From positions 124,001 to 188,000 of the forward strand of contig NZ_JABTCG010000004.1 of assembly GCF_014610845.1 (NCBI RefSeq): DNA of 64,000 bases, given 5' to 3'. Under the pieces are notes generated by a model. The model was not told where the DNA came from. It saw only the letters and a program-made list of their open reading frames with translations, and did not search any database. The translations under genes and the position numbers were made by a program. Source of the stretch: Maribacter arenosus. GTDB lineage: Bacteria; Bacteroidota; Bacteroidia; Flavobacteriales; Flavobacteriaceae. Within the stretch, counting starts at the first letter, position 1. Each line of letters opens with the position of its first letter. Shown piece by piece: positions 13,973 through 17,565 of this stretch.

Positions 13973-14581
13973 ATGGCTTTTGAATTACCTAAATTACCTT
14001 ACGCATACGATGCATTAGAACCACATATTGATGCAAGGACCATGGAAATACACCATACTAAGCACCATAATGGTTATACGAATAATCTAAATGCCGCCAT
14101 CGAGGGCACCGATTTGGCGAAGAAATCCATTGAGGATATTTTGACCAAGTTAGACATGGCCAATTCTGCGGTCCGGAACAATGGAGGTGGTTTTTACAAC
14201 CATTCCCTATTTTGGGAAATCATGTCCCCGAATGGTGGGGGTCAACCCAAGGGTGAATTGGCGAATGCCATAAAAGAAGCTTTTGGTTCATTTGATGCTT
14301 TCAAGGAAAAATTCAGCAAGGCCGCTGGTACTCGATTTGGTTCGGGATGGGCTTGGCTTTGCGTTCATAAAGGCGGTAAGGTTGAGGTATGCTCTACCCC
14401 TAACCAAGACAATTCCCTAATGCCGAATACAGGCTGTGGGGGCTACCCGATTCTTGGCTTGGATGTTTGGGAACATGCCTATTACTTAAATTACCAAAAC
14501 AGAAGACCGGATTACATAAATGCTTTTTTCAATGTAATCAATTGGGACAAAGTTGCGGAACGTTATCTTGCCAATAAATAA
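13973..14581 (+). CDS. sodA: Superoxide dismutase, Mn-type
   Basis: The protein has 202 residues, normal for Fe/Mn SOD. Metal ligands are His27 (IHHTKHH), His77 (FYNHSLFW), Asp164 and His168 (LDVWEHAYY). The Gly-rich stretch before His77 and the Gln in NQDNSLM are the Mn-type arrangement; an Fe enzyme would carry its Gln next to the second His ligand instead. Cambialistic use cannot be excluded. There is no signal peptide, so it is cytosolic. It has its own promoter and a strong terminator, hence is monocistronic. It converts superoxide to hydrogen peroxide and oxygen. Confidence 0.95.
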
Positions 14582-14594
14582 TAGAGATCAATTC

Positions 14595-14636
14595 AAAAAA
14601 ACCCCCTTAAATCGACGATTTAAGGGGGTTTTTTTG
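14595..14636 (+). terminator. Intrinsic terminator of sodA
   Basis: CCCCCTTAAAT and ATTTAAGGGGG (602-612 and 618-628 past 14000) form an 11-bp stem with loop CGACG, followed by eight T. It lies 15 nt after the sodA stop. Confidence 0.92.
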
Positions 14637-14645
14637 TTTCATATA

Positions 14646-14719
14646 ATAGAAAAGGGCGGAGAAGCCTCCACCCTTTTCGTCCCAAATCTTACCATAAACT
14701 TAACCTACTTATGCTATGG
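14646..14719 (-). ncRNA. Small RNA unit A of four (novel family candidate)
   Basis: On the minus strand the unit begins CCATAGCATAAGTAGG (5' end near 14719) and carries the 39-nt core shared by all four units; this copy differs at one position (TTTATGG for TTCATGG). The core runs into a terminator hairpin, GGGTGGAG-GCTT-CTCCGCCC then TTTT (14650-14677). The stem has one non-Watson-Crick pair, which is G-U on the minus strand but C-A on the plus strand, so the minus strand is the likely RNA. No reading frame is conserved among copies. It may be related to a known Flavobacteriia RNA motif (for example Flavo-1 in Rfam), which I cannot check here. Confidence 0.7.
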
Positions 14720-14724
14720 CAACA

Positions 14725-14732
14725 CTAAAATA
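14725..14732 (-). promoter_or_regulatory. -7-like box of small RNA A
   Basis: The minus strand reads TATTTTAG, one mismatch from TAnnTTTG, exactly 5 nt before the conserved core. Confidence 0.5.
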
Positions 14733-14849
14733 CTGGTATTGTGGTAAATAAAAAAGAAATTTTAACAAATTTTAGGTTTATATTCTATAGTTTGTGTGGT
14801 ATACAACCTTCAAAAGGTAAGGTTACCCCTGTTAATTACTGAGGTTTCC

Positions 14850-14925
14850 ATAATAAAAAAGGCAGGACAATGTCCTACCTTTTTTCCCCAAATCTTACCA
14901 TGAACTTAACCTACTTATGCTATGG
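14850..14925 (-). ncRNA. Small RNA unit B of four
   Basis: The core lies at 14886-14925 on the minus strand and is identical to units C and D over 39 nt. The terminator (14855-14885) is AGGTAGGAC-ATT-GTCCTGCCT followed by T5. Its stem sequence differs from the other units but still pairs, and its single wobble is G-U only on the minus strand. The predicted RNA is about 70-75 nt. Confidence 0.75.
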
Positions 14926-14930
14926 TCCAG

Positions 14931-14938
14931 CAAACATA
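14931..14938 (-). promoter_or_regulatory. -7 box of small RNA B
   Basis: The minus strand reads TATGTTTG, a full match to TAnnTTTG, 5 nt before the core. No clear -33 TTG is seen. Confidence 0.6.
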
Positions 14939-15153
14939 GTGTATAACTAAAATGTGGGGAAAGGTTTTAGACAAACTCCCTGATCTCTAGTTGAAATGCG
15001 TATTACCAGGTTTATGGTTACATATGATGTAGGAAGGGTGTGTCTTTTTAGGAAAAAGAGTAAATCGAGAGGGAGATCCAGCCCAATGGCGGGGTTAATT
15101 CTACCAACTATTTTAAAATCCGCTTACGGTCGTTGCAAAATAGGGTCTCATTA

Positions 15154-15226
15154 AAATAAAAAGGTGGGGCATTGCCCCACCTTTTTCCCCAAATCTTACC
15201 ATGAACTTAACCTACTTATGCTATGG
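15154..15226 (-). ncRNA. Small RNA unit C of four
   Basis: The core lies at 15187-15226 on the minus strand and is identical to B and D. The terminator (15158-15186) is a perfect GGTGGGGC-AAT-GCCCCACC stem with A5 before and T5 after. Upstream it shares a diverged copy of the flank of unit B. Confidence 0.75.
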
Positions 15227-15420
15227 TCCTCCAAACATAGGGTTAAACTTAAAAGTGAGGAAAGGTTTTAGATGAAAACCCATATACTTGGTTGAAGTGC
15301 GAAGATCGACAAAAAAACAGGTTTTTAGCCCATGATTTAATTCTGTTTACTTGGTTGAAATTTAAATTGGCCATGGATGAATATCGATGGGAAGGGTGTA
15401 ACTATTTAAGAAAGGATTAA
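15227..15420. repeat. Flank of small RNA C, homologous to the flank of B (14926-15060)
   Basis: Both flanks share CAAACATAG, GGAAAGGTTTTAGA, GTTGAA-TGCG and GGAAGGGTGT in the same order with scattered changes, so B and C are a tandem duplication of about 300 bp. The C flank also repeats TACTTGGTTGAA twice (near 15287 and 15349). Units A and D do not share this flank. Confidence 0.55.
15232..15239 (-). promoter_or_regulatory. -7 box of small RNA C
   Basis: The minus strand reads TATGTTTG, a full match, 5 nt before the core. Confidence 0.6.
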
Positions 15421-15486
15421 AAAGATTTTGAGCCCCTTACTTTTTAGATTTTCTGTCTTAGGAGGTTAAAATTTGGAGGCTTATAT

Positions 15487-15561
15487 AAATAAAAAAGGTG
15501 GAGAAGTCTCCACCTTTTTTGCCCCAAATCTTACCATGAACTTAACCTACTTATGCTATGG
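15487..15561 (-). ncRNA. Small RNA unit D of four
   Basis: The core lies at 15522-15561 on the minus strand and is identical to B and C. The terminator (15491-15520) is GGTGGAG-ACTT-CTCCACC with A6 before and T6 after. It is the unit closest to the purF 3' end, with about 60 nt between its -7 box and the purF terminator hairpin. Confidence 0.75.
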
Positions 15562-15566
15562 CAAGT

Positions 15567-15574
15567 CTAAAGTA
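15567..15574 (-). promoter_or_regulatory. -7-like box of small RNA D
   Basis: The minus strand reads TACTTTAG, one mismatch from TAnnTTTG, again exactly 5 nt before the core. Confidence 0.5.
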
Positions 15575-15621
15575 GGCGGGCATACTCCCTTAAAGGCTAT
15601 AAACACGATGAACTGCGGAAA

Positions 15622-15661
15622 TTATCGATGAAATGCACAATTTTATGTATTTCATCGATAA
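15622..15661 (-). terminator. Hairpin after purF
   Basis: A perfect 13-bp inverted repeat, TTATCGATGAAAT and ATTTCATCGATAA, with a 14-nt loop starts 5 nt after the purF stop. There is no long T-run on the minus strand (only TTATCGATAATTTCC), so it may protect the mRNA end rather than terminate efficiently. Confidence 0.5.
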
Positions 15662-15666
15662 AACTA

Positions 15667-17565
15667 TTAATATGCCCTTTCGTTCTTTCCTTCGTAAAAG
15701 TTGATAAATGCCCTGTTTACTACTTTATTGCCTCCTGGCGTAGGATAGTTTCCTGTAAAGTACCAGTCCCCTAGATTATGGGGGCAGGCTTCATGAAGAC
15801 TTTCTATGGTTTGGTATATGATCTTGACTTCGGCCTTAATGTCTTCAGGACTTAGAAGTTCCCCGATTTTATCGGAAATCTGATTTGCTGTAAAAGGCGC
15901 ATAAAAATCCTTCACATAGTTCACGATTTCATGGTCCTTTGAAGTGACTTGCTCAACGCATTTGTTGTAAATCAATTCGACCTTATCCAATGAGTTGTTA
16001 TCCTCATGTAACGCAAGTGCAGCTTTGAATGCCACAAAATCCTCTAGTTTGGCCATATCTATGCCGTAACAGTCCGGATACCTGATCTGAGGTGCCGAGG
16101 AAACCACAATTATTTTTTTAGGCGACAACCGATCTAATATTCTTAGGATACTTTTTTTAAGGGTTGTACCCCTAACTATGCTATCATCGATTATGACAAG
16201 ATTATCGTCCTTTTCGACAGAACCATAAGAAATATCATATACATGGGCGACAAGGTCATCCCTACTGCTGTCCTGGGTAATGAACGTTCTGAGTTTCGCA
16301 TCCTTTATGGCTACCTTTTCGATTCTTGGCCGTATTTCAAGAATTTCATGCAGTTCTTTTTGGGTTATCTTTGAGCCGATTGAAAGGATTTGTTCTTCCT
16401 TCCTTGAATTTAAATAATTCTGGGCTTCTTTGACCAAACCGAAAAAGGAAGTTTCTGCCGTATTCGGTATGTACGAGAAAACCGTATTCTTAATATCATG
16501 GTCTATAGCCTTCAGGATTTGAGGGAAGAGAAGTTTACCCAATTCCTTGCGTTCCTGATAGATTTCCTTATCGCTTCCCCGAGAAAAATAAATACGTTCA
16601 AACGAACAGGCTTTTCTTTCTTTGGGTTTTAAAATTTCCTTGATGGCGGAACTGCCGTCTTTTTTAATGATGATCGCGCTGCCAGGAGTAAGTTCTTTGA
16701 CTTCTTCATAAGGAACATTGAATACGGTTTGTATCGCCGGTCTTTCAGAAGCCACTACTACAACTTCATCATCCTTATAGTAGTACGTAGGTCTAATGCC
16801 CGAAGGATCTCTAAGAACAAACGCATCCCCATGGCCCAACATTCCGGCCATCGCATAACCTCCATCCCAATTTTTCGCGGCCCTCTTAAGGATCTTATTC
16901 AGTTTTAATCTTTTGGCTATCAATGGGGAAGCCTCTAATTTGTTATAACCTTCTTTTTTGATCTGTTTGTATAATTTGGCAACAGCATCATCTAAAAAAT
17001 GACCTATTTTCTCCATTACGGTTACGGTGTCGGCCATTTCCTTGGGATGTTGCCCGATTTGCACAAGGTTATCGAAAAGCTCATGAACATTGGTCATATT
17101 AAAATTACCGGCAACAATAAGGTTACGGTGCATCCAATTGTTCTGTCTTAGGAAAGGGTGTACATTTTCTATACTGTTCTTTCCGAACGTCCCATAACGA
17201 ACATGCCCCAAAAGTACCTCACCGATATATGGAATGTTTTTTTTCTGGGCCACAACATCATCCTTGTATTCAGGATGTTCTTGAAATGCCACATTGATTC
17301 GGTCATTGATTTGGTCGAAAATATCTTGTATCGGCTGTTGTTCTACGGAACGAACCCGGCTCATATATCTTTCCCCGGGGTTCATATCCAGCTTTATGCT
17401 CGCAAAACCGGCGCCATCCTGTCCGCGATTGTGCTGTTTCTCCATCATCAGGTACATCTTATTTACCCCGTAAAAAGCAGTTCCGTATTTTTCTTTATAG
17501 TATGATAAGGGTTTAAGTAAACGGATTACCGAAATTCCACATTCATGCTTAATTGCGTCGCTCAT
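15667..17565 (-). CDS. purF: Amidophosphoribosyltransferase (PurF-type)
   Basis: This 632-residue protein is longer than typical PurF (about 480-510). The N-terminal Ntn glutaminase starts at Cys9 (KHECGIS), preceded by eight residues that must be cleaved to free the nucleophile, as in propeptide-type PurF. NRGQDGAG (46-53) and HVRYGTFG (121-128) belong to the glutaminase. The C-terminal PRTase carries the PRPP loop VIIDDSIVRGTT (457-468) and IRYPDCYGID. It converts PRPP and glutamine to phosphoribosylamine, the first step of purine synthesis. purN lies 1.8 kb upstream on the same strand. Bacteroidota often carry a second PurF paralogue, so this could be the non-canonical copy. The PfkB gene precedes it across a terminator. 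Confidence 0.85.
   Translation of the reverse strand: MSDAIKHECGISVIRLLKPLSYYKEKYGTAFYGVNKMYLMMEKQHNRGQDGAGFASIKLDMNPGERYMSRVRSVEQQPIQDIFDQINDRINVAFQEHPEYKDDVVAQKKNIPYIGEVLLGHVRYGTFGKNSIENVHPFLRQNNWMHRNLIVAGNFNMTNVHELFDNLVQIGQHPKEMADTVTVMEKIGHFLDDAVAKLYKQIKKEGYNKLEASPLIAKRLKLNKILKRAAKNWDGGYAMAGMLGHGDAFVLRDPSGIRPTYYYKDDEVVVVASERPAIQTVFNVPYEEVKELTPGSAIIIKKDGSSAIKEILKPKERKACSFERIYFSRGSDKEIYQERKELGKLLFPQILKAIDHDIKNTVFSYIPNTAETSFFGLVKEAQNYLNSRKEEQILSIGSKITQKELHEILEIRPRIEKVAIKDAKLRTFITQDSSRDDLVAHVYDISYGSVEKDDNLVIIDDSIVRGTTLKKSILRILDRLSPKKIIVVSSAPQIRYPDCYGIDMAKLEDFVAFKAALALHEDNNSLDKVELIYNKCVEQVTSKDHEIVNYVKDFYAPFTANQISDKIGELLSPEDIKAEVKIIYQTIESLHEACPHNLGDWYFTGNYPTPGGNKVVNRAFINFYEGKNERAY

Follow-up and report, generated by a model that had tools for sequence, protein, structure and literature searches.

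The window analysed here is a 64,000 nt stretch of the Maribacter arenosus genome in which a superoxide dismutase gene (sodA-like) and a purF-like gene converge on a gap of 1.09 kb, between the stops at 14581 and 15667, that holds no plausible gene (Table 1). The sole reading frame of at least 60 aa in this gap is a TTG-started frame of 64 aa (14553-14747) overlapping the end of the sodA-like gene and unit A. As both neighbours score below the curated NCBIfam cut-offs their names serve as labels only.

Four tandem copies of a 39-nt core lie in the gap on the minus strand, three of them identical and one with a single change. The initial annotation had described these cores, the gene-free region of about 1.1 kb and an intrinsic terminator after every core, and all of this was confirmed, with a minus-strand hairpin and T-run present at all four units. 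The imperfect terminator stems of units A and B likewise proved to have U-G pairs on the minus strand that correspond in the alignment to A-C on the plus strand. Core matches in the shuffled window averaged 0 over 100 shuffles and the folding z-scores of the units were -4.24, -4.31, -4.60 and -4.32. A pattern search of the whole 4.17-Mb genome with up to 3 mismatches found these 4 copies only, and a covariance model gave the four units 67-73 bits with the next best match in this genome at 21.

Table 1 Features of the array and its neighbours in the Maribacter arenosus window
Feature	Position	Strand	Details
Superoxide dismutase gene (sodA-like)	13973..14581	plus	Conserved convergent neighbour; best NCBIfam match superoxide dismutase [Mn], 265 bits, cut-off 363
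sRNA unit A	14648..14720	minus	Core 14681-14719 (1 mismatch); predicted start G at 14720; terminator hairpin 14650-14677; sodA-proximal type, U in UUUAUGG, GGGACGAAAA before terminator
-7 box TATTTTAG of unit A	14725..14732	minus	First base at -12 from predicted start
CACAATACCAGTA block before unit A box	to about 14757	minus	Conserved in sodA-proximal-type units
sRNA unit B	14854..14926	minus	Core 14887-14925; predicted start A at 14926; terminator hairpin 14855-14885
-7 box TATGTTTG of unit B	14931..14938	minus	
Operator-like repeats of unit B	14968..14996	minus	TTTCAACTA at -70 (1 mismatch to TTTCATCTA), GTTTGTCTA at -50 (3 mismatches)
sRNA unit C	15157..15227	minus	Core 15188-15226; predicted start A at 15227; terminator hairpin 15158-15186
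-7 box TATGTTTG of unit C	15232..15239	minus	
Operator-like repeats of unit C	15269..15297	minus	TTTCATCTA at -50 (exact), CTTCAACCA at -70 (3 mismatches)
sRNA unit D	15490..15562	minus	Core 15523-15561; predicted start G at 15562; terminator hairpin 15491-15520; GGGGCAAAAAA type; of the four units closest to purF
-7 box TACTTTAG of unit D	15567..15574	minus	
Operator-like repeats of unit D	15605..15633	minus	TTTCATCGA at -71 (1 mismatch), GTTCATCGT at -51 (3 mismatches)
purF-like gene	15667..17565	minus, same strand as units	Conserved neighbour; best NCBIfam match TIGR01134 purF, 135 bits, cut-off 350

A conserved array in the Flavobacteriaceae

Using a 38-nt core pattern with up to 3 mismatches we found matches in 43 of 149 sampled family genomes (42 of 148 genera), and a reversed control pattern gave no match in the same 149 genomes. 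At least 120 stretches with the core were retrieved from a named collection by an exact 33-nt pattern, the genera among the matches listed being Maribacter, Zobellia, Arenibacter, Muricauda/Allomuricauda, Robiginitalea, Eudoraea, Cellulophaga, Kordia and others. The initial annotation had proposed a covariance model search over the class and a scan against Rfam including Flavo-1, and both were carried out. Building a covariance model of the core on 10 units and applying a threshold of E 0.01, we obtained matches in 311 of 397 Flavobacteriaceae genomes, representing 192 of 237 genera, and in 6 of 295 genomes of a class-wide draw. Since all 6 of the latter fall in the Flavobacteriaceae the RNA looks confined to this family within that sample, in which the kinship of the 269 non-matching genomes is not listed. 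Scanning the array against Rfam 15 yielded no family at its threshold, Flavo-1 was absent from the 89 matches up to E 10, and the weak matches of unit D that were displayed align mainly via the terminator.

The surroundings of the array are conserved as well. Among the 140 loci listed, which comprise 20 from the genome draw and 120 of those retrieved from the named collection with some overlap, a purF-like and/or a sodA-like neighbour is present in 137 (both in 101, one in 36), neither being found at L103, L107 and L142. In the listed loci the units lie downstream of purF on the purF strand and face sodA. A neighbour match was also obtained for 39 of 41 further model-found loci, a set that takes in diverged variants and three loci of the own genome; the two exceptions, L145 and L167, both come from G223. 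In G014 the array is split: a unit adjoining purF and another adjoining sodA are separated by about 219 kb (L153 and L168). For two further genes, labelled uvrD and pfkB, the best matches point to a RecB-like helicase and a PfkB-type kinase, respectively. When viral contigs were scanned with the purF-like protein no match was obtained, a result that is uninformative.

Across the 327 distinct units from the loci listed a 40-nt core is near-invariant, flanked by variable bases both up- and downstream. This constancy is partly by choice, because the named-collection loci were retrieved with the exact 33-nt pattern; when further copies in the listed loci were sought with up to 5 substitutions, 338 of 352 matches were one of two versions. 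The model-found variants have few changes and keep the stem ACCAU/AUGGU, the loop AGUAGGUUAAGU and the linker A(A)GAUUUGGGG. Among the loci listed, the sodA-proximal unit has U for C before AUGG in 68 of the 74 multi-unit arrays with sodA in view, against C in 166 of 169 other units of those arrays, which indicates that the unit positions are old and that the core has been kept in all types. One unit of Maribacter antarcticus (L043, around 6679) has an altered linker, AACATGTGTG, with the remaining core kept, and is possibly a decaying copy.

The RNA is predicted to fold into a 5' hairpin formed by ACCAU/AUGGU with AGUAGGUUAAGU in its apical part, followed by a single-stranded linker AGAUUUGGGG and the intrinsic terminator. 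Almost no covariation is seen in the 5' hairpin, as the hairpin hardly varies. An inner 3-bp stem, although paired in 94% of cells, was rejected as a conserved element on account of the variable length of the 5' side of the loop. Within the fold the seed is open in its GUAGG part, and its UUA takes part in this weak inner stem with about 90% pairing. The best terminator stem measures 10-14 bp in all 327 units scored and comes in 99 different sequences. On the RNA strand these stems contain 107 G-U against 3 A-C oppositions, counted by a script that treats both alike, so the argument from G-U pairs for strand and for selection on structure holds at scale, with the reservation that the sequences are related and the events not independent.

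Two further repeats were observed that touch on the array. Between purF and unit D (15622-15661) lies a 19-bp inverted repeat, 89% complementary (TTATCGATGAAATGCACAA / TTATGTATTTCATCGATAA), which contains the operator-like site TTTCATCGA. A repeat around CGCTTATCTNNCCGAACACTA, followed by the RNA's linker motif as GTAAGATTTG, was seen at L207 and L267 (own genome) and L404 (G052), and at L267 it adjoins what we read as an integrase-like gene. This second repeat may be the end of a mobile element that shares the linker motif by chance.

Promoters and a putative control region

Each unit is preceded by a TAnnTTWG box whose first base lies at -12 and which ends 5 nt before the predicted start (327 units from the loci listed), and this start is A or G, directly before CC, in about 99% of units from the same loci. 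The position of the box relative to the start equals that given for sigma-A in F. psychrophilum in the part of the source that was available (PMC9723704). Together the separate box, purine start and terminator fix the strand and the ends of an RNA of about 72 nt in the absence of transcription data. The earlier proposal of a multicopy family of about 70-nt RNAs is strongly supported by this conserved start, by the G-U asymmetry and by occurrence in hundreds of genomes, with no transcript seen.

Further upstream, units B, C and D carry a pair of TTTCATC-type repeats spaced 20 bp, one of each pair with 3 mismatches, and none was found upstream of unit A. We scored such 9-mers in the loci listed as four consensus words with up to 2 mismatches, classing units by sequence type and not by place. 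The -71 site is present in 94 of 133 units of the GGGGC type and 84 of 128 of the middle type, and the -51 site in 49 of 133 and 69 of 128 respectively. Of all 261 units of these two types, 200 have one or both of the sites and 96 have both. Other tested offsets gave 1-8 matches with one exception of 25. In the sodA-proximal type the repeat occurs in only 1 of 63 units at each site, yet the CACAATACCAGTA block is strongly conserved. Given that most units other than the sodA-proximal ones have at least one repeat, and over a third both, a transcription factor, itself inferred from these sites, probably acts on several copies at once to set their dose. The distance between the two sites, about two helical turns, suits a dimeric activator, conceivably one of the LytTR family to judge from its layout.

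Complementarity to the gldK leader

Candidate targets were sought in the start regions of 714 genes from the window and 40 further stretches of the same genome, about a fifth of it in all. In 200 genes loop complementarity showed no global enrichment in start regions (shuffled-seed fraction 0.48). Of the complements of 36 core 7-mers, TAACCTA was found in 10 start regions against 4.2 expected, with 1 occurrence upstream and 2 downstream. Four 7-mers were flagged well above expectation, three containing the start codon and the fourth being ATCTTAC, the complement of the linker-side GUAAGAU, which was found in 7 start regions against 2.1 expected and also 5 times upstream and 4 downstream. Genome-wide, the 12-mer loop complement with at most 1 mismatch has 8 sites beyond the 4 units compared with 96 for the reversed control; 6 are in genes (one on the sense strand, inside the gene) and 2 between genes. 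The linker complement YCCCAAATCT has 36 sites beyond the units where the reversed control has 8; most of the 36 run antisense within genes, 8 are sense within genes and none lies at a sense-strand gene start, and this complement was rejected. We read the excess as an effect of codon use. At the sodA coding start the mean duplex with the loop beats 95% of shuffles, a pairing that is not claimed here because it falls in conserved codons.

Following the 714-gene scan, in which the best energy match was L295 with a site about 48 nt upstream, we chose gldK. Its start region, AAUUUAACCUA, can form 11 bp with the loop including one G-U, from -15 to -5 relative to the AUG. The gene was identified by NCBIfam as the T9SS ring complex lipoprotein PorK/GldK (606 bits, cut-off 350) and the reading frames downstream are, to judge from gene order and sequence, gldL-, gldM- and gldN-like. 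UspA, the second-best energy match of the same scan, was not conserved (AACCTAC in 2 of 30 relatives) and, being picked likewise, was taken as a negative control for the gldK test.

A gldK match was obtained in 59 of 60 drawn family genomes, of which 57 could be parsed; the other two, L342 and L354, both without the RNA, have no start in view. TTAACCT, to which the near-invariant loop AGUAGGUUAAGU is complementary, lies shortly upstream of gldK in 36 of 43 genomes with the RNA versus 1 of 14 without it, taking the nearest ATG as start, and in 34 of 43 versus 1 of 14 under a first start-codon rule. Under the latter rule the distance from its first base to the start is 12-18 nt, with two exceptions (22 and 23) among the site-bearing leaders. 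TTAACCT is the commonest 7-mer of the gldK leaders from genomes with the RNA (36, the next reaching 23), stays while the flanks of the site differ between clades, and is rare in distinct other leaders (3 of 123 sodA-like, 0 of 71 purF-like, 0 of 30 helicase, 0 of 6 PfkB-type). The exact 7-mer is missing from 7 of the 43 RNA-bearing genomes, or from nine under the first start rule. The site is 57-86% unpaired in a mostly open leader.

The single genome with the site and no model match at E 0.01, G015, was found to contain a strongly diverged unit of 23.9 bits (L403, minus strand, mid-locus) with none of the four neighbour genes alongside. Stem, linker and terminator are kept in this unit and its greatly altered loop, AUAGGUUUA, has one mismatch to TTAACCT, which suggests that the model misses further diverged or moved copies. 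In this sensitive scan of the 16 no-match genomes weak matches were also obtained in G003, G052, G055 and G058, none of them unit-like. Recoding G015 as RNA-positive, post hoc, gives 37 of 44 versus 0 of 13. One genome of a supported clade otherwise possessing both RNA and site (G041) has no RNA match at E 1 and a leader with TTAACCG, with the reservation that the assembly consists of 250 contigs.

The Fisher p-values obtained, 4e-7 (36/43 vs 1/14) and also 3e-8, both ignore phylogeny. On a short GldK tree of 160 columns, with 3 of 54 inner branches well supported and G015 coded negative, 8 changes are required for the RNA and 10 for the site. The supported branches offer three independent pairs, on average concordant in 2.7 and conflicting in 0.0, a number that cannot reach 0.05, and of four pairs starting from the site 2.6 agree and 1.4 do not differ. 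Tree-corrected support for the co-occurrence of RNA and gldK site is thus thin.

Pairing of loop and linker together with the gldK leader was no better than shuffles overall (fraction 0.14). In one clade (L355, L357, L358, L363 and L366) the leader can pair with loop and linker in the right order, the linker contributing -8.6 to -10.1 kcal/mol, and the two-site pairing of L321 also reaches -8.6 kcal/mol. The linker may add pairing in one clade or bind something else.

Proposed action, known systems and alternative readings

We favour, with moderate confidence, a reading in which the units encode sibling sRNAs of about 72 nt that act in trans on the gldK leader, although expression, pairing, repression and regulator are all inferred. 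Each unit would be transcribed from its own vegetative-type promoter, starting at the conserved purine of RCCAU. A transcription factor bound at the TTTCATC-type repeats (about -71/-51) would set the joint dose, with the sodA-proximal unit under a different conserved promoter, and the loop would pair with TTAACCT just before the AUG of gldK, which encodes a ring-complex lipoprotein of type IX secretion, and repress translation of this gene. Repression is the likelier sign since the predicted pairing, in a mostly open leader, would occupy the stretch before the AUG required by the ribosome. The full chain, from a response-regulator-like factor at the repeats through the purF-sodA array to translational control of gliding and type IX secretion via the gldK operon, with the sodA-proximal sibling regulated separately, remains a tentative proposal. 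Trans action had been inferred in the initial annotation; the recurrent match to the gldK leader speaks for it and experimental demonstration is lacking.

In design the array can be grouped by analogy with LhrC, Qrr and FopS in the class of sibling sRNAs. With that class it shares near-identical genes with their own promoter and terminator, as sequence features without expression data, and a conserved complementarity to an unlinked mRNA start, here the gldK leader, where function is inferred. The Qrr RNAs of Vibrio are siblings with a near-invariant core, separate promoters and upstream regulator sites; they are mostly dispersed and depend on sigma-54 promoters (-24/-12), LuxO and Hfq. The array in the window is in contrast tandem and has a TAnnTTWG promoter. 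No -24/-12 pair is conserved in the aligned upstream profiles as read by eye, a box at -12 to -5 being found instead, and the Qrr model is absent from the 89 Rfam matches up to E 10, so that the earlier description as Qrr-like stands as a comparison of design only, the array having no Rfam match at threshold. LhrC lies in tandem copies in one intergenic region, and its seed and targets differ from those of the window RNA. In the accessible part of one report this multicopy sRNA of Listeria is linked to the two-component system LisRK (PMC4132741). Both RNAs are multicopy but Listeria belongs to a different phylum, and the sequences were compared only through the Rfam scan. Closer to the present family, Rfp18 of F. 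psychrophilum is described, in a source available in part, as a conserved flavobacterial sRNA whose third stem-loop pairs with metalloprotease mRNAs (PMC9723704). The window RNA has two stem-loops; identity is not formally excluded as the sequences were not compared.

The alternative that survives best is that the same sRNA family does its main work on other or many mRNAs, the gldK site being conserved on account of something else, for instance translation initiation or a site for a protein. We consider this unlikely without discounting it. The whole 40-nt core is frozen and not the loop alone, the linker AGAUUUGGGG is equally constant and brings no better pairing with the gldK leader than shuffles do, and the complement of GUAAGAU exceeds expectation in start regions, though it also occurs up- and downstream of them. 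Against this the gldK 7-mer co-occurs with the RNA while the flanks of its site are unconserved between clades. Even under the favoured reading of trans action on gldK, near-invariance over 40 nt exceeds the needs of one 7-nt target, making other targets or a protein partner likely.

Multiple copies, and the constancy of stem, loop and linker including positions unneeded for pairing, would also be expected of decoys that titrate a protein (CsrB-like or a sponge for an RRM protein) with the copies setting the dose. We regard this as improbable, as a single copy appears to suffice in many genomes (a lone unit is present at 41 loci, some of them ended by contig edges) and the gldK 7-mer would be left unexplained.

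There is still less to recommend the idea that the RNAs target the starts of SusC-like transporter genes in the manner of FopS (Rfam RF04319). According to the available part of its description FopS is a Bacteroides set of multicopy near-identical sRNAs of about 65-70 nt with sigma-A-type promoters, made up of 9 intergenic, 4 antisense and one 3'-UTR RNA, which represses by pairing at the translation start of susC (PMC11697453). The window array resembles it in phylum, copy number, length, promoter type and, by prediction, repression through pairing near a start codon, but is tandem at one locus and has gldK and not susC as predicted target. A further FopS criterion is binding by the RRM protein RbpB, and the Rfam model gave at best 19.8 bits where 56 are required. 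TonB/SusC receptors found no support as a target class, with no complementarity excess in 30 leaders of 36 plug-domain matches (shuffled-seed fractions of 0.22 with the loop and 0.60 with the linker), a weak class-level test in one genome. Finally, the constant position, following the purF-like gene and preceding the sodA-like one, might suggest that the units belong to a purF 3' UTR or act as a cis element of sodA, a reading we can practically set aside given that each unit has its own -7 box at fixed distance and its own terminator, that the array strand is opposite to sodA and that the two G014 copies lie at two places, one by purF and one by sodA.

In open-access titles and abstracts, with partial coverage, we found no description of the window RNA family. 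To our knowledge few sRNAs of the Flavobacteriaceae have a known role. A 2017 study of F. columnare, to judge from the accessible part of the source, reported candidate sRNAs without Rfam matches (PMC5395568). An RNA so constant, in 192 of 237 sampled genera, is likely to be important to the basic biology of the family, and if the control of gldK is true this would be, among open-access titles and abstracts, the first case in which gliding and type IX secretion are controlled at the level of RNA.
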